DNA from: Qipengyuania flavescens
GTDB lineage: Bacteria; Pseudomonadota; Alphaproteobacteria; Sphingomonadales; Sphingomonadaceae
Assembly: GCF_029688735.1 (NCBI RefSeq)
Contig: NZ_JARULD010000005.1
Span: forward strand, 1 to 64,000
Direction: 5' to 3'
Length of the DNA: 64,000 bases
Numbering within the stretch: position 1 is the first letter of the stretch; each line of letters starts with the position of its first letter. Below are positions 2,420-36,137 of the stretch, piece after piece. A model generated the notes under the pieces. It did not search any database and had not been told where the DNA came from. It saw nothing but the letters and a program-made list of their open reading frames with translations. Made by a program: the position numbers and the translations under genes.

Positions 2420-3877
2420 CCAATTGTGCAGCAGTCGTCTCCGGTGAAGGTTCGGTGCGATCAGTTATCAAATGCTCACAACTTCTATTGGTGTCCTGTA
2501 AACCGACAAAATAAGCAGGAAGCGATAACGGACGCCGAGTTCAATCACCTCCTCCGGCTAGCCACAGACAGCCTCGCGGCAAGAGAAACAAAACTGAGGG
2601 ATTGGCAGTGATCCATCCGGCTCACCACGCGTACAGAAACGCCACGCCCATAGGATCGGCCTGAAACGCTTGGCCGACGAATTCGCCGGCATCCCGCATC
2701 CTTCAAGGTTGGGTCAGGTCGATTCCGAATTACGCGGCACTTTCGTGTGTGGCAGACACGCCGCAAATGACTTCGATGCTGTACTGTTTGATCAAGAATT
2801 AGCTGATTTGCGCGATCTGCCGTCGGCAATTCTGGGAAAGCGAGAACCCGCAGTTTCTTGCGACGCCGTTCGTGATCCGGGCTTCTGCATGTCGCGGTTC
2901 AACGGCAGGTTGGTCCATGCAATCGAAGACATCCAGCTTATCCAAGCAGTCGAAAAGGCCCTCACGACCGCAGGGTTAGCGCTCTCGATCTCCGATCACT
3001 CCGCGAGCTTTCGAGTCTTGAATTGCTCGGCCGATAGCCTGTCGATGCGCGAATGTGTGAATCTATTGATGCAGACGCTGCTTTTCAACGCGCGCGAGCT
3101 GCAAGCAAACATTGCTCTCGTCCGCCAAGCGATGGCGCACCCAGTTGCCGGCCTGCTCGATAAGACTGATGTGGCAATCCGGATCAATGCGGTTCAATCC
3201 ATTTTCAAGCCCATGCGGACAGACGCAGGCCAACACTTCTCGAATTACAGATCGCCAGCGATGCGCCGGACCGAGCGACGCGAGCGTCTGCAATCTCGTT
3301 TGCCGGGCCAGCCTATTCCGCCAATTGCCACGCCCGAAGGAACGGTAAGCTGAAGTGGCTAGAGCCGCTTCTGCGGCAGCGCCTCAATCAACGGAGCGGA
3401 CGCGAAATGGTAAAAATTGCGGACGCGCCTCGATGCCATCATCCCCAGACTGTCGGAGCGTTTGGGGGGCGTTGCCTGGCGGCCTCCCGTTCGTACCCAA
3501 CAAGGTCCTCCGTATTACAAGGAACGGGCAGCGCGAATGTTTCGAGACAAGGAACCGAACGGCCGTTGCAACCCGGCATTCTGGCCTTACTCCGGTCGAA
3601 TGCCTCGCCGTAGGCGTCTGCCGCTTCGTCTCTTTCCTTGCGCAGGAATTTGAGGAGATGACTGCTTATAGGGAGAAGAAAAGAAAGCTCTTGCTTCGAG
3701 GTGCCGATGGCTTGTCCCCATTCGGCTTTGCAGATCTTCGGAGAGGATCGCGAACCAGGATCAGGGAACTCATAGATCACTATCGAAGGACTATTCTCCC
3801 GGATTTGAGCTTTGGCAGTAAATCTGGGCGGAAAGAGCCGATCGCCTCATACGACAGGCAGAGCGACAAGGAAATCG
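2420..3877. other. degenerate region with no confident gene
   Basis: About 1.45 kb between ctaG and the recombinase remnant. Several open frames exist on both strands (plus strand 2670-3353 and 3355-3900; minus strand 3063-3293), but none shows a recognisable family, a good ribosome binding site or a coherent start. Base composition is less GC-rich than the flanking chromosome. Short stretches read like pieces of genes in shifted frames, for example plus-strand LDAIIPRLSERLGG near 3.42-3.46 kb. I interpret it as decayed mobile DNA left by an older insertion at the same locus. Confidence 0.5.
2670..3353 (+). CDS. uncertain open frame, 227 codons, unknown
   Basis: Longest open frame in the degenerate stretch, beginning at a TTG. 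The product has no signal peptide, membrane helix or motif that I recognise, and its last 40 residues are arginine- and proline-rich with no obvious fold. There is no clear Shine-Dalgarno sequence. It could be a fragment of a mobile-element gene, or chance coding in GC-rich DNA, since the antisense strand also carries long open runs here. Treat as unproven. Confidence 0.15.
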   Translation: MADEFAGIPHPSRLGQVDSELRGTFVCGRHAANDFDAVLFDQELADLRDLPSAILGKREPAVSCDAVRDPGFCMSRFNGRLVHAIEDIQLIQAVEKALTTAGLALSISDHSASFRVLNCSADSLSMRECVNLLMQTLLFNARELQANIALVRQAMAHPVAGLLDKTDVAIRINAVQSIFKPMRTDAGQHFSNYRSPAMRRTERRERLQSRLPGQPIPPIATPEGTVS

Positions 3878-4245
3878 ATACCGCTGCAAATCGCGACTGA
3901 GTTGGCAAATATTGCCGCTCAGAAGCGAGCCATTGAAGCCGACATCGATCTCGTCGAGTTACAGATTGCCAATGGCAGCCGCGCGATCACTCCAGAGACA
4001 ATTGAAAAATTTGGCCCGCTGATCTCATCGAAGCTGCAAGACCGCAACGCCACTCTGCGACGCGAATACGTCCGGCTTCTCATCGAAAAGGTGGAAATCG
4101 GAAACGATATGATACGCATTACGGGCTCGAAAGATGCTTTGGCCGCTGCAGCTTCATGCTCCCAGCAAAACGGAGTGCCCAAAGCTGTACGTAGATGGCG
4201 CACCCGACAGGATTCGAACCTGGGACCTCTGCCTTCGGAGGGCAG
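3878..4245 (+). pseudogene. C-terminal remnant of a large serine recombinase
   Basis: The frame reads ELANIAAQKRAIEADIDLVE, then SSKLQDRNATLRREYVRLLI, EKVEIGNDMIRITGSKDAL and [20 protein letters not shown]. This is the coiled-coil and C-terminal tail typical of sphingomonad site-specific serine recombinases, whose genes often end by reading into a tRNA gene. The N-terminal catalytic domain with its serine is absent upstream. The tail [18 protein letters not shown] is encoded by the tRNA-Arg-like repeat at 4196-4245, so the gene originally overlapped the tRNA. After that the frame runs on into unrelated sequence. It marks an earlier integration at this site. The family call is from memory of such proteins, not a search. 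Confidence 0.65.
4196..4245 (-). repeat. left attachment repeat: copy of the tRNA-Arg(CCG) 3' half
   Basis: These 50 bp match 9993-10042, the 3' half of the tRNA-Arg(CCG) gene from the anticodon stem to the CCA, at 48 of 50 positions. The mismatches are at 4223 and 4225. The longest perfect blocks are 27 bp and 20 bp; the latter is the anticodon stem-loop. The copy is in the same orientation as the tRNA, as expected for attL/attR made by integration of an element into the tRNA 3' end. It is followed at 4376 by the integrase gene. Confidence 0.85.
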
Positions 4246-4327
4246 TGATTTAGTGTTTCCTGAAGTTCATAGCTGTCAGAAACTCCGCTTTTCAGTATCT
4301 TGTTGTCGCCCATTGTGCACCCATGTA

Positions 4328-4360
4328 TTACGTACTTATTACGTACTTATTACGTACGAA
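4328..4360 (+). repeat. three tandem 11-bp repeats, candidate recombinase arm sites
   Basis: Three head-to-tail units TTACGTACTTA, TTACGTACTTA and TTACGTACGAA lie between the left attachment repeat and the integrase start. The same core, TTACGTACG, recurs once at 9950-9958 next to the tRNA end of the element. Direct repeats inside both ends of an integrated element are typical of arm-type integrase or Xis binding sites. The role is inferred from position. Confidence 0.45.
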
Positions 4361-4375
4361 ATTTCGGAAGGTTCT

Positions 4376-5533
4376 ATGGCGCGCGACCTTAGCAGAGTGG
4401 GAGACAGGGAGCGCCTAAAGCCTAGGCGTGACCCTTATTGGCAACGCCTGTCCACCGGTTCCTTTTTGGGTTTTCGCCGCTCCAAGCCGCACGGTGACGG
4501 CACATGGATCGCGCGAGCGCTGGATGGTGAAAAACACAAATATGCCTTTTAGACTCTTGGCGATTTCGGTGCATTGCCCAAGAATGCGCGATTTGCGGCT
4601 GCGAAGTCTGAGGCGGAAGCGTCCGCCGACCTTACGCAGAACGGTGGAATTGCATCCCTAGAAATTGTCACCGTTTCCGATGCTTGTCGCGTGTATGCTG
4701 AAGGGAGGCCTGACGCAGAGGGCCGCTTCCGGAGAAATCTATACAGCGATCCTCTAGGAAGGGTGCGATTGGACAAGCTGCGCCGACATCATGTTCAATC
4801 CTGGCGCAGCCGTCTGGAAGCAAAGCCAGCGCTGGTGAGCCGCCGAAAGGCAGGCGAGAAACTGTACCGAGAGCGATCTCCAGGAAGCGTGAACCGGGAA
4901 GTGGCCATACTGAGAGCCGCTCTAGGAAGGGTCCTTCCTCCCGGTCCTCCTAAGACCAATGCCGCTTGGCAGGAAGCTCTTCAGAAGATTCCAAACGCGG
5001 ATAGGCAGCGCACGCTGTATCTCGACCGGGAGCAGCGTAAGATGTTGCTCGACAACACCGATCCAGAGGCGAAGGAATTCTTCGAAGCATTGTGCTTGCT
5101 CCCACTTCGACCCGGGGCACTCGCCCGGCTGAGCGTGGGAGATTTCGATTCCCGCACGCATCAACTGACAATCAGAGACAAGGGTGGCACGCTGCGTCGC
5201 ATCCAAATGCCTCTGGCCGTGTCCAAGCTTTTTAGGATGGTGGCTGAAGACAGAGATGAGGGTGCCCCCTTGTTCCTGCGGTTCAGCGGAGAGCCTTGGG
5301 ACAAGTACGCCTGGAATAGGTCAATCAAGAAAGCCGTAAAATTATCAGGCCGACCGCCAGAAACCTCGGCCTATACGCTCCGCCATAGCACGATTACCGA
5401 TCTTGTTAGGACAGGTTTCCCTCTGCTTAATATCGCCCAAATTTCCGGTACGAGCTATGAAATGATTGAGAGGCATTATGGACATCTAGGTCGTGAAGCC
5501 GCGCTTGATGCCCTCAGCACGCTGGAACTTTAG
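4376..5533 (+). pseudogene. int: tyrosine recombinase (integrase) with in-frame amber codon
   Basis: Phage/island-type tyrosine integrase that would catalyse insertion at the tRNA. From the ATG at 4376 the frame reads a DUF4102-like N-terminus (HGDGTWIARALDGEKHKYAF), meets TAG at 4550-4552, then continues in the same frame with TLGDFGALPKNARFAAAKSE. The reading therefore spans 386 codons with one nonsense codon at position 59. Numbering through the stop, catalytic residues are visible: Arg245 (PLRPGALARL), Arg336-His337 (YTLRHS, with Tyr at the usual first His) and nucleophile Tyr368 (RHYGHL). The native codon was probably CAG (Gln). A shorter product from a TTG at 4574 is possible but would lack the arm-binding domain. 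The gene ends TAG immediately followed by TAA. Confidence 0.8.
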
Positions 5534-5766
5534 TAAAAATTACTCTCCTCATCACAATTGGGGAGATTATCGAGAAATTTTACTAAGTCCGAATGAAGAA
5601 TGATGGTTCTCCTCCCAAGCTTCTTCCCGCCAATCTCCCCCACATTCAGAATGCGATAGAGTTTTCCTCGGCTTATCCCAAGCATAGCAGCCGCCTCTTC
5701 CATGCTGTAAGCAAGAGGCTCGATCTTTCGACCACCACTGACCGAAGATAAAGGTTCGTGCTTCAT
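5530..5766 (-). CDS. AlpA/Xis-like helix-turn-helix protein
   Basis: Small DNA-binding protein (78 residues), probably an excisionase or directionality factor for the adjacent integrase. The core, SMEEAAAMLGISRGKLYRIL, followed by GGKKLGRRTIILHSDLVKFL, is the MerR-like winged HTH of the AlpA/HTH_17 family. It is convergent with the integrase and overlaps its end by 4 bp. The ATG at 5766 has a GGAG about 8 bases upstream. A palindromic sequence at 5777-5821 overlaps the probable promoter, suggesting autoregulation. Confidence 0.75.
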   Translation of the reverse strand: MKHEPLSSVSGGRKIEPLAYSMEEAAAMLGISRGKLYRILNVGEIGGKKLGRRTIILHSDLVKFLDNLPNCDEESNFY

Positions 5767-5776
5767 TTCTCTTACT

Positions 5777-5821
5777 CCGGAAAATTCATCTCCTTCCCTT
5801 ATAGGAAGATTTTCCGGAAAA
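5777..5821. promoter_or_regulatory. palindromic operator candidate upstream of alpA-like gene
   Basis: CCGGAAAAT at 5777-5785 is mirrored by ATTTTCCGG at 5809-5817, with an inner CTTCC/GGAAG pair between them. The right half is itself part of TTTTCCGGAAAA (5810-5821), a 12-bp perfect palindrome. On the minus strand the centre contains CCTATAAGG, a plausible -10 element for the HTH gene that begins at 5766. The arrangement suggests an autoregulatory operator. Confidence 0.45.
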
Positions 5822-5994
5822 ATTTCTGGTTCGGTGATTTTTTCAATCGCGGCAGATATGGCTGTTTCAATCAGGGAGGAAGATGAGGTGTGAGCCAGAT
5901 ACTAACCCAATCCCTGTCAATTCAACGGATGACCGGATTTGTCGTAGATTGATGGCAGGTCGGCATGCGGCATGGAAAAGATGGAGCTGAGTGA

Positions 5995-7100
5995 GTGAGG
6001 GATGCAGAGTATCGGGCATGGCTCGAAACCCAAGAGTTGGTGTCCAGCAGCGTCAGTACGAAAATGTCGGACGCTCGCCGGGTTTCTCAGGCTCATGGCG
6101 ACCTCGACCAGCACTTTGTCAACGACCAGATGGCATCGCTTCTCGCTAAGTTCGCCTATTCAAAGGCTGATGAGGAGCAAGGACGGGCCAACCCGACCGA
6201 GCTTCCGATCGAAGGCAATCTCTACAACAACCTTTCCGGCTACCGCTCTGCGATCAACACATATCGCAGATTCTGTGAGGCCGGCGATAATCCGCAGGGG
6301 CGGCTGTCCGGCCTTGATCGGCAGATAATTCTGAATGCGATCGCCGCTTGCGACAAGGCCGGATCGGTTGCCGCCTTCGTGGCGACGCTCGAAGATCGAG
6401 GGCAACCCAGCAAATATTGGCTTCTGCACGAAGGCAATCGCTATCCCAGCAAAGCCATCGTCCATTGGGCCATGCGTGAGCGCAGTATCGACGCAAGTGC
6501 GGGCGGCAGCTTGTGCAAGGCTACGCTGGAGGAGCTCGGTTTCGTCGTCATTGATTGGCCCGAACTGCAACGTGCCCGGGAGAACTTCCTGCGTCAAATG
6601 CCCGGCTTCACTAGCTTCCGAGACGCGGATGGATCCTATTGGGACGTAGAGCGGCGATACAAAAACCAGTTGGTTGAGGATGCTCGCACTATCGCATAGG
6701 GCGAGGGTGACGATCGGTCTGCAGGTGAGGCCATCTACCGCATACTGGTTGGGGGGCAGCAGGGTGTGCCGCTAAACTGGCGCACCTTGCCAGAGATACA
6801 GCAAGCCGATGCTATCTTGGCTGACCGCTTTTACAGCGCTCTCGGTGAGCTAGCTCGCAGCCAGTCGCCGATCGACGAAGCTATCGCATCCGCTGCGCAT
6901 GAACTCGAAGCGCTTCGCGAAAACGGTATCGCCGGTCTGCGGCGGGGCGAGGTCCTTTCTATACCGATCACCGTGTGGGCGACACTCCACCCCGAAGAAG
7001 CCAGCTGGTTTAAGATCGCGAAGATCGAAGAAATGGGTAAGCGTTTCTTCGGTCGAAAGCTCTTCCCGCAGAACGAGTTCCGCGAATCCGAAAGCATGCT
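5995..7100 (+). pseudogene. restriction-type gene remnant with amber codon and lost 3' end
   Basis: The frame opens at GTG 5995 (GGAG about 8 bases upstream). The first about 100 residues (YRAWLETQE, LPIEGNLYNNLSGYRSAINT, YRRFCE) and the next domain (LLHEGNRYPSKAIVHWAMRE, LCKATLEELGFVVIDW) resemble the N-terminal specificity domains found in McrA/McrB-like and HNH restriction enzymes. TAG at 6697-6699 interrupts, and the same frame continues for another 130 residues (GVPLNWRTLPEIQQADAILA, GLRRGEVLSIPITVWATLHP, ASWFKIAKIEEMGKRFFGRK), so this was one gene. Near 7.1 kb the frame runs into the antisense of another gene, so the rest, including any catalytic domain, is gone. The family assignment is tentative. 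Confidence 0.5.
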
Positions 7101-7110
7101 GCGAAACCAG
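7085..7110. other. chimeric joint between two 3'-truncated convergent genes
   Basis: The plus-strand restriction-like frame is natural up to about FGRKLFPQNEF (7080). The minus-strand exported protein is natural down to about DQAWFRSML (7100). Both then read only the antisense of the other. Two convergent genes that each lose their 3' end at the same point indicate a deletion or illegitimate recombination joint. The exact base cannot be fixed without an uninterrupted relative. Confidence 0.5.
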
Positions 7111-7472
7111 GCCTGGTCGATGTCTGCAGTCAGATGGATGACAAAATCACCGCCAATCCGTTCCGATTGCTGGTCGATCAGCATGTCGGGGCGAATCTGC
7201 GAGGCCATCTGGTCGATGATTTCGGCCGAGACCTCCGGCAAGCGCGAATGCCCGATCGTCTTGGTGAGCATGGTTAGCACGATTTCCCTCCGCGCTTCGC
7301 GTTGCGCGAGGCTCTGTGTGGTTGCCGTATCCTTCGTAATGACGGCCGAGCCGCGTCCTACCACTTCATCGGCCTTGGCCGGGGCGGCAAGCGCAAGAGA
7401 GGCTGCCAGAGCAGTGATGGATGCCCGGTAAGTACCGCGCAGCAATGTGTTTTTTCCTGCCGACATCAGCAT
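7097..7472 (-). pseudogene. exported protein (LPP20/LpoB-like), 3' end lost
   Basis: From ATG 7472 (upstream AAAAAGGAATCC as ribosome binding site) the product has an n-region MLMSAGKNTLLRG and a hydrophobic signal ending AAPAKA, then a mature part VVGRGSAVITKDTATTQSLA followed by QREARREIVLTMLTKTIGHS. The periodic 'GxGxAx...A...AxRxA' pattern resembles LPP20/FlgT-N-type envelope proteins. About 125 natural residues remain before the frame passes the joint near 7.1 kb; it stays open by chance to 6831. It lies 34 bp downstream of the TPR lipoprotein gene, so the two probably formed an envelope operon. The function is unknown. Confidence 0.5.
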
Positions 7473-7506
7473 GGATTCCTTTTTCTTCGTGATTTCGGAC
7501 AGAGCT

Positions 7507-8013
7507 TCAGAAGTCAGTCGAGAGGGAGACGTCGCCGGCCTGTATGTGCGTTTCGCCATTCGGCAGTTCGAGGATGGTGACGTCCCCATCGGGGCCGGCC
7601 TCGACCAAAGCGTCGACCGGGCCGCCGCTCGATTTATTCGGTGAAGGAGGGGCTTTGCCGTGAAGGGCAGCAAATCGATCGGATCTCCGAAGACCGGCGA
7701 ACGCTGCATCGTTGAGCGCAGTGGCCGCATTGGGCAGGCCAAGCTCGATGGCCTTTTCCAATTCGTCGAAGGCGCGGCCCTCGTTTCCCGCCAGCGCCTC
7801 TGCACGCGCTTGTTCATAAAATGCGGAAGGATCGTTCGGATGGGCTTCTACAACATCGGCAGCAAGCTCGACCGCCCGCCCGAAGTTGCGCGCGACGATC
7901 TCGGCGCGCACCGCGTCGATGCTTTGCGAACCGTCAGACCAATCGTCCAATCCGCAACCACATAACAGAACGGGGAGAAACACTCCCGCGCTGCGCGCCA
8001 AAAATCTCGCCAT
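7507..8013 (-). CDS. TPR-containing lipoprotein
   Basis: 168-residue exported protein. The signal peptide ARSAGVFLPVLLCGCG ends in a lipobox with Cys at about 18-20. Residues 40-95 form two TPR-like helical hairpins (ARNFGRAVELAADVVEAHPN, AFYEQARAEALAGNEGRAFD, ELEKAIELG), followed by a short repeat remnant and an acidic C-terminal tail (ILELPNGETHIQAGDVS). It probably acts as an envelope scaffold together with the truncated downstream protein. No specific function can be assigned. Confidence 0.65.
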   Translation of the reverse strand: MARFLARSAGVFLPVLLCGCGLDDWSDGSQSIDAVRAEIVARNFGRAVELAADVVEAHPNDPSAFYEQARAEALAGNEGRAFDELEKAIELGLPNAATALNDAAFAGLRRSDRFAALHGKAPPSPNKSSGGPVDALVEAGPDGDVTILELPNGETHIQAGDVSLSTDF

Positions 8014-8129
8014 TTCTTTCCCCCCTGGGATCGCAATCTCTTTCGGATTCAGCGATCTAGGTGATGCATAATCAGATCCGGCTAAGTTTCTAGATTAATT
8101 TCTTAATAATTTTCCGTGCGGTGGAAAAC

Positions 8130-9122
8130 TTAGTTGCCGTGGGTATTTGACCGATTTCGCCATTCGTCGAAGAACGGCACTAAATCAGCAGGCAACTCGG
8201 CGGCGAATGCTTCGTCCAAGTTGTATTGCGGCATAGCCTCGGAAACTGCATCGAGAAGCGCCTTGCCCTGCGCAACGTCTTTCCTTCGCTTCAAGGAATT
8301 GCGCTTGGCCTGCGAGCCCAGCCATAGTTTGTGGAGCGCGAACCAGCGTGGATCGGGCGCAACAATGCGTGCGGGGGTTCCGTCGCGGCATGGCACGACT
8401 TGATCGACGCGGCGACCGGGTAGCAGCCATTCCTGTTCCGGCAAGGGCACGGGCTTGGGCCGGTCTTTAGCTCCCAGTGTCTCAGCCCGCGACGGGGCAA
8501 CCAGCAGCTCGACCTCGTAGGCCTTGGCGTTGCGCGCCTGAAAGTCGCGTTCGGTGTTGATCGTGAAGGTGGGATCGACCGCCTTCAGCATCTCCCACAC
8601 GACAGCCTCGTTGGCTTCTTCCTCGGCGGCCCAGGCGAGATCGAAGTCCTCAGTTTCATCAGGCACGTCGTTGAAACTTCCCGCCGCCTCGATCGCATAG
8701 GCCGCCATGGCGTTTGTACCGACGACGAGAAGGTGGGAGCCCAGCAGGCCGCGGCGATCGGCCTCCCTCAGTATCGGGCCGGCGTCTGCTGACAGGAGGG
8801 GGAGGCGGAGTGCGCGCGCGATCCGGCTGCTCTCGGACAGCGCCTCGCCCGCGCCTTCGCGGCGCTGCTTGGCGGACTGTTTGCGCTCCCTGTATTCCTC
8901 GAACTGCTGCTGCTTCTCGTCATCCCAGGCGCCAAGGCTCGTCCCGTTGCCCGATCTGTCGTGAATTTCGTAAAGATACTCGTACTCGCCGACCTTCTTG
9001 CGGCGCAGGTCGTAGGGCAGGGATGCAAGGTCCCGCTCGGCCTCGATCCATACTTCATAGCGCTGGCGCAGGTTGATGAGCGCGCGTTCCTGCTCAGGTG
9101 AAAAGGGGCGAATAACAGGCAT
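8130..9122 (-). CDS. GSU2403-family nucleotidyltransferase-fold protein
   Basis: 330-residue cytoplasmic protein resembling the GSU2403 / NTP_transf_8 family. An N-terminal helical, charged region (FEEYRERKQSAKQRREGAGE) precedes the nucleotidyltransferase core: HLLVVGTNAMAAYAIEAAG, then DVPDETEDFDLAWAAEE, where the D-x-D (DFDLAW) pair would bind metal. The C-terminal helical part includes DPRWFALHKLWLGSQAKRNS and KRRKDVAQGKALLDAV. Members of this fold occur in toxin-antitoxin and defence loci, and the setting in an integrated element fits, but no antitoxin partner is evident. The gene sits alone between the TPR lipoprotein and a divergent unknown gene. Confidence 0.65.
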   Translation of the reverse strand: MPVIRPFSPEQERALINLRQRYEVWIEAERDLASLPYDLRRKKVGEYEYLYEIHDRSGNGTSLGAWDDEKQQQFEEYRERKQSAKQRREGAGEALSESSRIARALRLPLLSADAGPILREADRRGLLGSHLLVVGTNAMAAYAIEAAGSFNDVPDETEDFDLAWAAEEEANEAVVWEMLKAVDPTFTINTERDFQARNAKAYEVELLVAPSRAETLGAKDRPKPVPLPEQEWLLPGRRVDQVVPCRDGTPARIVAPDPRWFALHKLWLGSQAKRNSLKRRKDVAQGKALLDAVSEAMPQYNLDEAFAAELPADLVPFFDEWRNRSNTHGN

Positions 9123-9274
9123 CAGGAGTTGTTATCCCACATTCTGCCGAGTCGCAAGAATGTGGGATAAATAAGGATTATTGGAAGGGGGAGGGGTGGC
9201 TGACGCCGGAAGGTGAAAATTCCATCCAGGGCGCGCAGACTTGCAGCCAGCTGCGCGCCGCCCGGAGACATTCC

Positions 9275-9712
9275 ATGAGAAAGAAGACCAACGGTGCCGG
9301 TGCGGTGTCCTACGCCCGTGCCTTGAAGGTCTGTCAAAATCTGGCGGTGCTCACCGCCTACGAAGTGCTTGGCGACCAGATATTGCATCCCGCCGATGAG
9401 CGGCGATCGTCGCCGACCGAATCTTTGGTTCTCATGCCGGGCATCCGGCTCACCTCGGATAAGATGGCAGAAGGTATTGCGAGGCTTGGCACGAGCGCCC
9501 TCGGCGTGAGGGCGGTCCAGGCTTCTAGCGGCGAATATATTGCCGACTTCACAGTGCTCTTCGCCACCGGCGCAAGCGCGGAACGCTATCAGGACATGCG
9601 CGCATGGCTCCACCGCGACGAAGGGCTCTATCTCATCCCGGATGACACGGGGAGGGGAAGCGGAAAGCCATCGCGTAACGCTCTCTGCTTGGACTTGAGC
9701 TGTTCTGGGTGA
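9275..9712 (+). CDS. hypothetical protein, possibly 3'-altered
   Basis: 145-residue open frame with a good ribosome binding site (CCCGGAGA, about 7 bases before the ATG). The body SYARALKVCQNLAVLTAYEV, MPGIRLTSDKMAEGIARLGT, SALGVRAVQASSGEYIADFT looks like a genuine globular protein. The last 20 residues (RGSGKPSRNALC and on) are of different character, so the 3' end may have been replaced. I do not recognise the family. It is the last gene before the tRNA end of the element. Confidence 0.45.
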   Translation: MRKKTNGAGAVSYARALKVCQNLAVLTAYEVLGDQILHPADERRSSPTESLVLMPGIRLTSDKMAEGIARLGTSALGVRAVQASSGEYIADFTVLFATGASAERYQDMRAWLHRDEGLYLIPDDTGRGSGKPSRNALCLDLSCSG

Positions 9713-9992
9713 AGCTGGTCATCGAGCTGATAATAGGGAGCCATCGCGCCAGCGTAGCGCAAATTCGCAATTGCACCAGTGGGATAGGTGTTTGAGCCCG
9801 ATCTGCTCTGACAGCTTGCATGCGAAGCCGCACCAATACGATCATTGATCGCTTCGTCGGCCGCTTCACCGCCAGCCATTCGTGTCGGACTGGGATGAGT
9901 GATTCACTCGATAGCATACGGAAAACATACCGCAAGAATTGCGTACGCATTACGTACGCGTCTCGTATGAGCCATCTAAGTCATTGAAAAGG
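9713..9992. other. right end of element, no gene; recombinase site candidate
   Basis: This 280-bp stretch between the unknown gene and the tRNA carries no credible coding frame. It contains GCGTACGCA (9941-9949) directly followed by TTACGTACGCG (9950-9960), the latter matching the 11-bp repeats near the left end. The element therefore has related motifs just inside both attachment repeats. Confidence 0.4.
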
Positions 9993-10069
<77 letters not shown>

Positions 10070-34923: not shown

Positions 34924-36137
34924 CCGAAGATCCTTTGGGTACGGTCTATGCCGCGCAACAGGGCGGCGATATCGCTTTCGTCCGAGTAGAGCCCGAAGCT
35001 TGCCCGCGCGGTCGCGGGGACGCCGAGGTGCTCCATCAGAGGCTGTGCGCAGTGGTGTCCGGCACGGATCGCGACATTCTCTTCATCCAATATGGTGCCG
35101 AGATCGTGGGGATGAACCCCCTCCATTGCAAAACTGACGATCCCGGCACTCTCGTCGGGTCCGAACAGCGTCACCGAATTGAGATTGCGGAGTTCGTCGC
35201 GCAATTGCCGCGCGAGGCCGCTCTCGTGGGCAAACAGCCTGTCGGGACCCATCCCGGCGACATAGTCGATCGCCGCATGCAATGCGATCGCCTCGGTGAT
35301 CATCGGCGTGCCTGCCTCGAAACGCTGCGGCGGCGGGGCATAGGTGGTTGTGTCGAATGTGACCTTGTCGATCATCGCGCCGCCGCCCTGCCATGGGGGC
35401 ATTGCATCGAGGATCTCCTCGCGCGCCCACAGCACGCCGATGCCCGTGGGGCCGTAGAGTTTATGGCCCGACCAGGCGTAGAAATCGCAATCGAGCGCCG
35501 CCATGTCGAGCGCCATCCGCGGCGCGGCCTGGCAGCCGTCGAGCATGATCTTCGCGCCGACCGAATGCGCAAGGTCCGCCGCCTTGCGCGCATCAAGGAT
35601 GGAACCCAGAACATTCGATACGTGCGCAAGAGAAACCAGTTTGGTTCGCGGCGTCAGCAGCGCCTCGAGCGCGCCAAGGTCGATCCGGTGGTCCTCGGTC
35701 AGCGGGCAGACGTCGATCTGCGCACCGGTCCGCTCGGCGACCATCTGCCAGGGCACGATGTTGGAGTGATGCTCCAATGTGGACAGGACGATCCGGTCGC
35801 CCTCGCCGATCTGCGTCATGCCCCAGCTGGCGGCGACGAGGTTGATTGCCTCGGTCGCGCCGCGCACGAACACGACTTCGTTCTCGCTCCGTGCGCCCAT
35901 GAAGTCTGCGACCCGGCGGCGGGCGGCTTCGTACCCCAGCGTCATCTGGGCCGAGCGACCATAGACCCCGCGATGCACCGTCGCATAATCGCGGCCGAGC
36001 GCATGGCTCATCGCATCGATCACCGGATGCGGCTTTTGCGCCGTCGCGGCCGTGTCGAGATAGTGCCACGGCGCGCCGTCGCCCGTTACGAGGCCGGGGA
36101 AATCCGCTTTGCGCGTCAGAGTTGCCGTCTCGTTCAC
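34920..36137 (-). CDS. sufS: SufS-type cysteine desulfurase
   Basis: 405-residue PLP enzyme that abstracts sulfur from cysteine for cluster assembly. PLP Lys226 is in FYAWSGHKLYGPTG and the persulfide Cys363 in IRAGHHCAQPLMEH, the short-loop class II (SufS) form. Also present are TVHRGVYGRSAQMT and GATEAINLVAASWG. The start is a GTG at 36137 that overlaps the sufD stop (GTGA); ATG alternatives would need a long, unconserved extension. No sufE is seen nearby. Confidence 0.93.
   Translation of the reverse strand: MNETATLTRKADFPGLVTGDGAPWHYLDTAATAQKPHPVIDAMSHALGRDYATVHRGVYGRSAQMTLGYEAARRRVADFMGARSENEVVFVRGATEAINLVAASWGMTQIGEGDRIVLSTLEHHSNIVPWQMVAERTGAQIDVCPLTEDHRIDLGALEALLTPRTKLVSLAHVSNVLGSILDARKAADLAHSVGAKIMLDGCQAAPRMALDMAALDCDFYAWSGHKLYGPTGIGVLWAREEILDAMPPWQGGGAMIDKVTFDTTTYAPPPQRFEAGTPMITEAIALHAAIDYVAGMGPDRLFAHESGLARQLRDELRNLNSVTLFGPDESAGIVSFAMEGVHPHDLGTILDEENVAIRAGHHCAQPLMEHLGVPATARASFGLYSDESDIAALLRGIDRTQRIFG

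Follow-up and report, generated by a model that had tools for sequence, protein, structure and literature searches.

The window analysed here, that is the whole stretch of 64,000 nucleotides from Qipengyuania flavescens, carries a 5.8-kb tyrosine-integrase element (about 4230-10030) between two copies of tRNA sequence, the left repeat (4193-4252) being 90% identical to 9990-10049 over 60 bp at a distance of 5797 bp (Table 1). As identified by PF00589, the repeat and ARAGORN, a Phage_integrase domain lies beside the tRNA fragment and the rebuilt tRNA lies opposite; the integrase gene is interrupted by an in-frame TAG, and its homologue in a congeneric genome (G311) stays open over about 400 codons. 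The repeat search of the window also found repeats related to TTACGTACTTA at 9933-9970. A gene for an NTP_transf_8 nucleotidyltransferase (8130-9122; PF12281, E 1e-35) lies inside the element.

In the ORF list of the window, an open frame extends from 3812 to the stop at 4550-4552, covering both a serine recombinase tail and the tRNA-derived repeat; the N-terminus of the integrase happens to lie in the frame of the serine tail ORF. An earlier note on this DNA had described the C-terminal tail of a serine recombinase running directly into the left tRNA-derived repeat, and reading the frame through 4245 together with alignments of homologues bore this out. The span it had given, 3878-4245, held for the recombinase tail but not for its start, since the recombinase part begins only at about 3887. 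The homologue of the preceding sequence (3350-3891) is, in the congener G323, the gene immediately upstream of the recombinase, and approximately 1.7 kb of G323 sequence between that gene and the recombinase tail is absent from the window. With this loss in the one and the in-frame stop in the other, the window copies of both recombinases look dead, as judged from their sequences.

Table 1. Features at the locus (positions in the window; G323 is a congeneric genome with a related serine element, and G239 a genome of the same genus with the empty site).
Feature	Position	Strand	Basis
Decayed gene of the serine element, in several frames	3350..3891	+	tblastx, 52-57% identity to G323 oriented 35175-35723, linked set E 3e-90
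Deletion junction, upstream gene fused to recombinase tail	3887..3891	.	window 3891 = G323 35723; window 3887 = G323 37429
C-terminal coding part of large serine recombinase, element-encoded	3887..4195	+	G323: 79% amino acid, 85% DNA identity
Serine crossover core TGGCGCACCCGACA	4196..4209	+	common to both G323 element ends and the G239 empty site
Displaced 3' half of tRNA-Arg(CCG), stranded by the tyrosine element	4196..4245	-	96% identity to 9993-10042
TTACGTACTTA direct repeats, candidate arm-type sites of the tyrosine integrase	4322..4359	.	repeat search; putative role
Tyrosine integrase pseudogene, in-frame TAG at 4550-4552	4376..5533	+	PF00589, E 1.7e-13 on 4574-5530
Small HTH_17 protein of the tyrosine element, possible excisionase-type regulator	5530..5766	-	PF12728, E 1.4e-10; putative role
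Intact tRNA-Arg(CCG), target of both elements	9993..10069	-	ARAGORN; sole tRNA called in the window

Identity and insertion site of the serine recombinase

The fragment at 3887-4195 codes for the C-terminal ~100 residues of a large serine recombinase. Its tail aligned to the ends of the open frames L003, L004, and L005 (549-573 codons) with 54-57% amino acid identity over 114-122 residues, and window positions 3887-4183 aligned in tblastx with the tail of the G323 recombinase, which shares 85% DNA identity with 3887-4190 and itself carries a frameshift. Resolvase, Recombinase, and Zn_ribbon_recom domains were present in all five relatives scanned (L004, L009, L011, L017, and L023), and a profile built from ten sequences matched the solved chains of TP901-1 (3bvp, E 4e-25), YokA (9dxh, E 7e-21), A118 (4kis, E 5e-14), and phiC31 (9ibl, E 4e-12). 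With the tail as query, 71 of 298 genomes of the family matched, the own genome counted, some of them only via the tRNA-coded end. It could be argued that an antisense tRNA frame always yields RQDSNL-like residues and that the upstream ORF is no recombinase, as this motif is simply the tRNA T-loop, 41 of 79 loci in a tail-pattern scan had no recombinase at E 1e-30, and a Pfam scan of the window fragment by itself gave no significant domain. We give this reading next to no credence, because the stretch of ~100 residues that precedes the tRNA aligns with full-length recombinases and with G323 at the identities given above, and these alignments refute it. A literature search returned no match for the RQDSNL motif.

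At the far ends of serine islands, a displaced tRNA half of 45-50 nt was absent in 10 of 12 genomes (present in G088 and G226) and, in a second set, in five of six, where the exception (G224) was the L005 locus itself. Since most far ends have no displaced half, the serine crossover was first suspected to lie outside the anticodon loop, and its position was then fixed by pairs of empty and occupied sites. A search of related genomes, which had been proposed along with the original claim, found recombinases with this tail antisense on tRNA-Arg(CCG), the closest being that of G323. There the recombinase sits directly on an intact tRNA-Arg(CCG); the corresponding flank in G239 carries no element. 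The junction reads ...ccctTGGCGCACCCGACA-GGATTCG in the empty site of G239, ...gtacggagaTGGCGCACCCGACAGGATTCG on the recombinase side of G323 and ...cccTTGGCGCACCCGACA-tgctagtgatggg on its far side, defining an element of about 26.0 kb and a 14-bp core, TGGCGCACCCGACA, which in antisense spans the CCA end of tRNA-Arg, its acceptor stem, and the opening bases of the T stem. G327 (empty site) and G201 (occupied) form another such pair: the element is about 30.4 kb and the change-over occurs at GAATGGYGCA, the same tRNA end as in G323, with a GCA core within; this junction is less clean, having a short core and a far end that loosely resembles tRNA. ARAGORN called a tRNA in both occupied loci (L011 and L065), and both pairs combine an empty site in a relative with a tRNA that is intact after insertion. 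A short core common to the att sites, with differing arms, was found in G323/G239, in G201/G327, and also when the own genome was compared to G299.

The native flank that congeners have beside this tRNA is found on contig C8 of the window's assembly, where it reaches TGGCGCACCCGACA at C8:23290 and continues into the arm TGAAAGTGATGGGCACTGTAATCATTGG, core and arm together being 82% identical to the G323 far end over 92 bp. At the predicted attP circle junction, the TGAAAGTGATGGGCACTG arm would be the partner of the recombinase end. In G299, the closest among 30 congeners compared via the tRNA-side flank, the C8-type flank is joined straight to tRNA sequence. The far end on C8 carries the exact core, and we therefore conclude that this lineage did experience insertion of an element of this type into the tRNA; the earlier suggestion that the recombinase gene once overlapped the tRNA agrees both with this far end and with the G323 recombinase on its intact tRNA. 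Alternatively, the recombinase tail could have been imported, for example inside the tyrosine element as cargo or through homologous recombination at this tRNA, without ever having integrated here. The tail does adjoin the tyrosine element and the tRNA repeats would permit homologous exchange, but a serine far end with the exact core at the native C8 flank is what insertion predicts, which makes import very improbable. In the own genome the element is covered in pieces, as the island reaches the contig ends of C8 and C9, with a gap between them. The arm and core of the far end recur at C8:9850 (L115), 13.4 kb from the first copy, indicating either another serine element or a rearrangement at this tRNA.

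tRNA genes as targets of the related recombinases

tRNA genes are classic landing sites of bacterial islands, a habit that is ascribed to tyrosine integrases, and the model phage serine recombinases use protein genes, for example comK or a pirin gene. A full-length recombinase query matched 27 of 60 congeneric genomes at E <= 1e-10, the own genome counted, and 10 of 385 genomes of the class at E <= 1e-40. The 30 genus loci comprised 13 close matches, the second half of one split gene, the window, and 15 distant recombinases that served as control; several close matches for which no locus was available, e.g., G321:C339, G346:C5, G298:C29, and G298:C4, were left out of the 13. An intact antisense tRNA was found at the 3' end of the recombinase in nine of the 13 congeneric loci and in four of the 10 class-level loci, and in one of the 15 distant large serine recombinases of the genus, a control that is impure, as several of its members end in a tail resembling tRNA or are followed by a tRNA-Ser at 235-400 nt. 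Where the intact tRNA was missing (four genus and six class loci), the recombinase continued into broken-tRNA-like sequence (L092 and L093), the contig ended at the core (L206), the likeness to tRNA was faint (L201), the recombinase was broken (L208 and L209), or it ended in sequence with no called tRNA (L072, L074, L202, and L207). The two congeneric loci L072 and L074 are 99% identical over the 1.5 kb after the recombinase core and have the common tail WCQKRHHIRTSFPFNF with no called tRNA; they may end in a different type of target or at a junction like that of a circle. Among the distant recombinases, L076-L078, L080, L083, L084, and L087-L090 show a tRNA-Ser 235-400 nt away, an overlap with tRNA-Leu(TAA), or tRNA-like frames, and the use of tRNAs may be wider among serine recombinases.

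Counts from a query that included the tail (tRNA in 22 of 28; 29 loci, one without recombinase) and from the tail-pattern scan (tRNA in 27 of the 38 loci with recombinase) are biased towards tRNAs and were kept apart. In these Alphaproteobacteria, the tRNAs called were those for Arg (CCG, CCT, and ACG, as well as TCT at L022), Leu (CAG), Thr (CGT), Ser (CGA and GGA), Asn (GTT), and Glu (CTC). The recombinase gene occupies a constant place on the tRNA: TGG was the tRNA end in all 62 loci with a called tRNA, and the frame back from this TGG was open for at least 380 codons in 54 of them. Relatives with an open frame include those of Devosia pacifica (L125), Sphingobium vermicomposti (L121), and Rhizobium subbaraonis (L150). 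When the tRNA label was placed on a tree of these 54 recombinases, from which the tRNA-coded tail had been excluded and the eight short-frame sequences dropped, it changed 23 times, compared to a minimum of eight and a mean of 28.1 in shuffled labels, with none of 200 shuffles as low, indicating that targets are partly inherited and often switched. Plasmid records gave 17 matches, and the one inspected, a plasmid of Sphingomonas parapaucimobilis (NZ_CP155751.1), carries a recombinase (WP_347092317.1) that overlaps a tRNA-Thr(CGT). Among 50,697 phage records 102 matched, all below 60% identity and five covering at least 80% of the query, and no close relative was found there.

The phage-type large serine recombinases (SPbeta YokA, A118, TP901-1, and phiC31) likewise have Resolvase, Recombinase, and Zn-ribbon domains and a short att core, whereas the clade described here lies at tRNA genes with the 3' end of the recombinase gene inside the attachment site, and targets the CCA/acceptor end of several tRNA isotypes. 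Available passages of the 2014 Islander paper state that serine integrases were not known at tRNA genes, and limit the term integrase to the tyrosine family (PMC4383910). The text of a 2025 note on TIGER/Islander gives no figures on serine integrases by tRNA (PMC12424338), and the portion at hand of a 2026 paper on the same resource names the attB place of a serine integrase, its tRNA nature being unstated there (PMC12884075). The word tRNA is absent from the main text of a large 2022 survey of serine recombinases (PMC10083194). In excerpts of two further sources, tRNA sites of mycobacterial prophages are assigned to tyrosine integrases (PMC10654092) and serine types of IMEs are placed inside genes (PMC5704250). 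On the other hand, an excerpt on Sinorhizobium meliloti reports that, of 88 integrases at tRNA sites, one was similar to a tyrosine integrase as well as to a phage serine recombinase (PMC11476347), and this case points against novelty of serine integrases at tRNAs. A serine clade on the CCA/acceptor end of many tRNAs would mean that such islands have possibly been missed or given wrong boundaries, because only a few bp of repeat remain, and it puts on offer serine integrases with targets in very conserved sequence.

The C-terminus at the tRNA junction

In the window, the tail consists of a tryptophan (TGG, antisense of the tRNA CCA end) and 15 residues from the repeat at 4196-4245; the 16 residues that the intact tRNA copy had been said to encode in the same frame are those obtained by translation of the copy at 9993-10069. 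Two pairs of loci bear on the origin of these residues. L026, on tRNA-Arg(CCT), and L066, on tRNA-Arg(CCG), have no mismatch in the 1500 bp before TGG, and neither have L149, on tRNA-Arg(ACG), and L153, on tRNA-Arg(CCG), while the tRNA halves diverge from the seventh and the thirteenth base on, respectively. As recombinase genes identical over 1500 bp stand on different tRNAs, the last residues are host tRNA DNA, and on this comparison of loci the recombinase codons of the element stop at the core. The match of the tail to the tRNA, as reported in the earlier note, hence marks a real overlap, with the refinement that the tail beyond the core belongs to the host tRNA and is no feature of the recombinase. 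The tails predicted for a free circle, both in the window's frame, are RTRHESDGHCNHWKSWFRRAHIGSFVP when the tail of the window is fused to the C8 arm and RTRHASDGHCNHWEILVSLPS in the case of G323.

An AlphaFold2 model of the relative L121 had a mean pLDDT of 80 and a pTM of 0.41, and its last 24 residues (526-549) fell below pLDDT 50, suggesting that the enzyme may well accommodate a host-dependent C-terminus. Conservation of the tail as a functional peptide found no support, given the same low pLDDT of the L121 tail. A more speculative thought, which we consider rather improbable, is that the tRNA acts as a state sensor, the enzyme ending in RTRHESDGHCNHW... (window) or RTRHASDGHCNHW... (G323) on the circle and in RTRQDSNL... 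when integrated, and that this swap of the C-terminus might affect how stable the enzyme is or in which direction it works, e.g., by promoting integration while the element is free and silencing the enzyme once the element is inserted.

Coding sequence that crosses an att site, giving a state-dependent C-terminus, is also described for the Mx8 and SSV integrases in the accessible part of the Islander paper, but that paper uses the term integrase for the tyrosine family, which is unrelated to the serine class found here (PMC4383910). Likewise, in the available text on integration-dependent immunity of Mycobacterium abscessus prophages, host DNA at attL ends a phage protein, sometimes with a tRNA 3' end; there, however, the protein is a repressor whose C-termini fit ssrA-type degradation, whereas here it is the serine recombinase itself (PMC8092301). 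Integrases extending across attP are thus already known from the Islander paper, and a tRNA-targeting serine integrase clade would be a variant for which we found no report in the partial texts of a literature that covers few subscription journals. It provides a natural case in which host DNA writes the end of an integrase protein.

The variable loop of the tRNA-Arg, at 4222-4227 and 10019-10024 in the window, differs between genomes. Its variant GTGACC, present in several congeners, gives a TGA stop in the recombinase frame directly after DSNL; the GTGGCC variant and the GGGACC of the window fragment leave this frame open.

Order of insertion and the tyrosine element

We propose, with a probability of about 0.73, a history of serine insertion, tyrosine insertion, and decay, in that order. 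An integrative element with a large serine recombinase would have entered tRNA-Arg(CCG) in this lineage, its crossover falling in the CCA/acceptor-stem end of the tRNA; with a recombinase gene that ends at the crossover, the last codons in the integrated state (the tryptophan and those after the core) would have been antisense host tRNA DNA, and the tRNA would have stayed whole because its body was untouched. A tyrosine-integrase element would next have entered the same tRNA at the anticodon loop and rebuilt it by supplying its own 3' half, the old 3' half staying joined to the recombinase tail 5.8 kb off. Later, a deletion of ~1.7 kb would have taken out the greater part of the recombinase gene, and the tyrosine integrase would have been broken by a nonsense mutation. 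From the comparisons presented here we take as established the identity of the recombinase, both of its junctions in the relatives, a far end on C8, two separate crossover places, and both the deletion and the stop; recombination by the serine enzyme and the order of the insertions we infer. Our confidence is held at the above level because the reading includes the order, which the layout leaves unfixed.

That the serine element came first, and the tyrosine element later, is nevertheless likely (about three in four), as had been claimed before on the sequence of the window. Accretion at an intact tRNA puts the outer element first, so that the outer serine element should be the older, and its worse decay agrees, with most of the recombinase deleted and the neighbouring gene in several frames as compared to one nonsense codon in the integrase. 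The claim falls short of proof, as the fragment at 4196-4245 retains the entire serine core and the T-arm and hence the serine target. The tyrosine element could accordingly have come first and the serine element then have entered the CCA/acceptor end of the displaced fragment, with the same final layout. In G298 a tRNA fragment and an integrase of tyrosine type (by resemblance) lie far out and a serine recombinase sits on the complete tRNA, showing that a serine element can come after a tyrosine one at this locus. Against this reverse order stand the older appearance of the serine remnant, the usual mode of accretion, and the fact that relatives on intact tRNAs are common; we regard it as unlikely, but as the most serious of the alternatives. 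The earlier picture of two unrelated recombinase classes using one tRNA in succession is hence kept as to the two classes, and as to their succession is likely only. Whichever came first, the serine class uses the acceptor end and the tyrosine class the anticodon loop, so that in the window one tRNA is used at two points by two unrelated enzyme classes.

The layered layout preferred here was not confined to the window. A recombinase tail leading into a tRNA 3' half, with the cut at the anticodon loop or directly beyond it, was found at ten further loci, and at an eleventh (L005) whose contig ends too soon. The next gene encodes a Phage_integrase protein in seven of the ten (L015, L122, L140, L142, L148, L154, and L161); inspection by eye of the ORFs at L126, L127, and L152 revealed no Phage_integrase-like next gene. 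The first residues of these integrases are diverse, and the layered layout thus probably arose more than once. G311 has a related integrase next to a tRNA fragment, arranged as in the window, without a recombinase tail, and the native flank stops about 100 bp short of the fragment. Tyrosine islands of the Islander type, as characterised in the available part of that paper, share with the window the integrase, the rebuilt tRNA, and a displaced 3' half cut past the anticodon loop; the window differs in the nonsense codon of its integrase and in that the displaced half bears a serine recombinase tail instead of native flank (PMC4383910).

A leftover tRNA-Arg 5' half was observed 155-179 bp from a complete tRNA-Arg(CCG) in G299, G298, G322, G306, and G302 (loci L042, L094-L100, L106, L109, and L112), with TGCTTACG repeats nearby and with a complete tRNA that in G298 is clearly different. 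This arrangement seems to reflect an element that brings a whole replacement tRNA.
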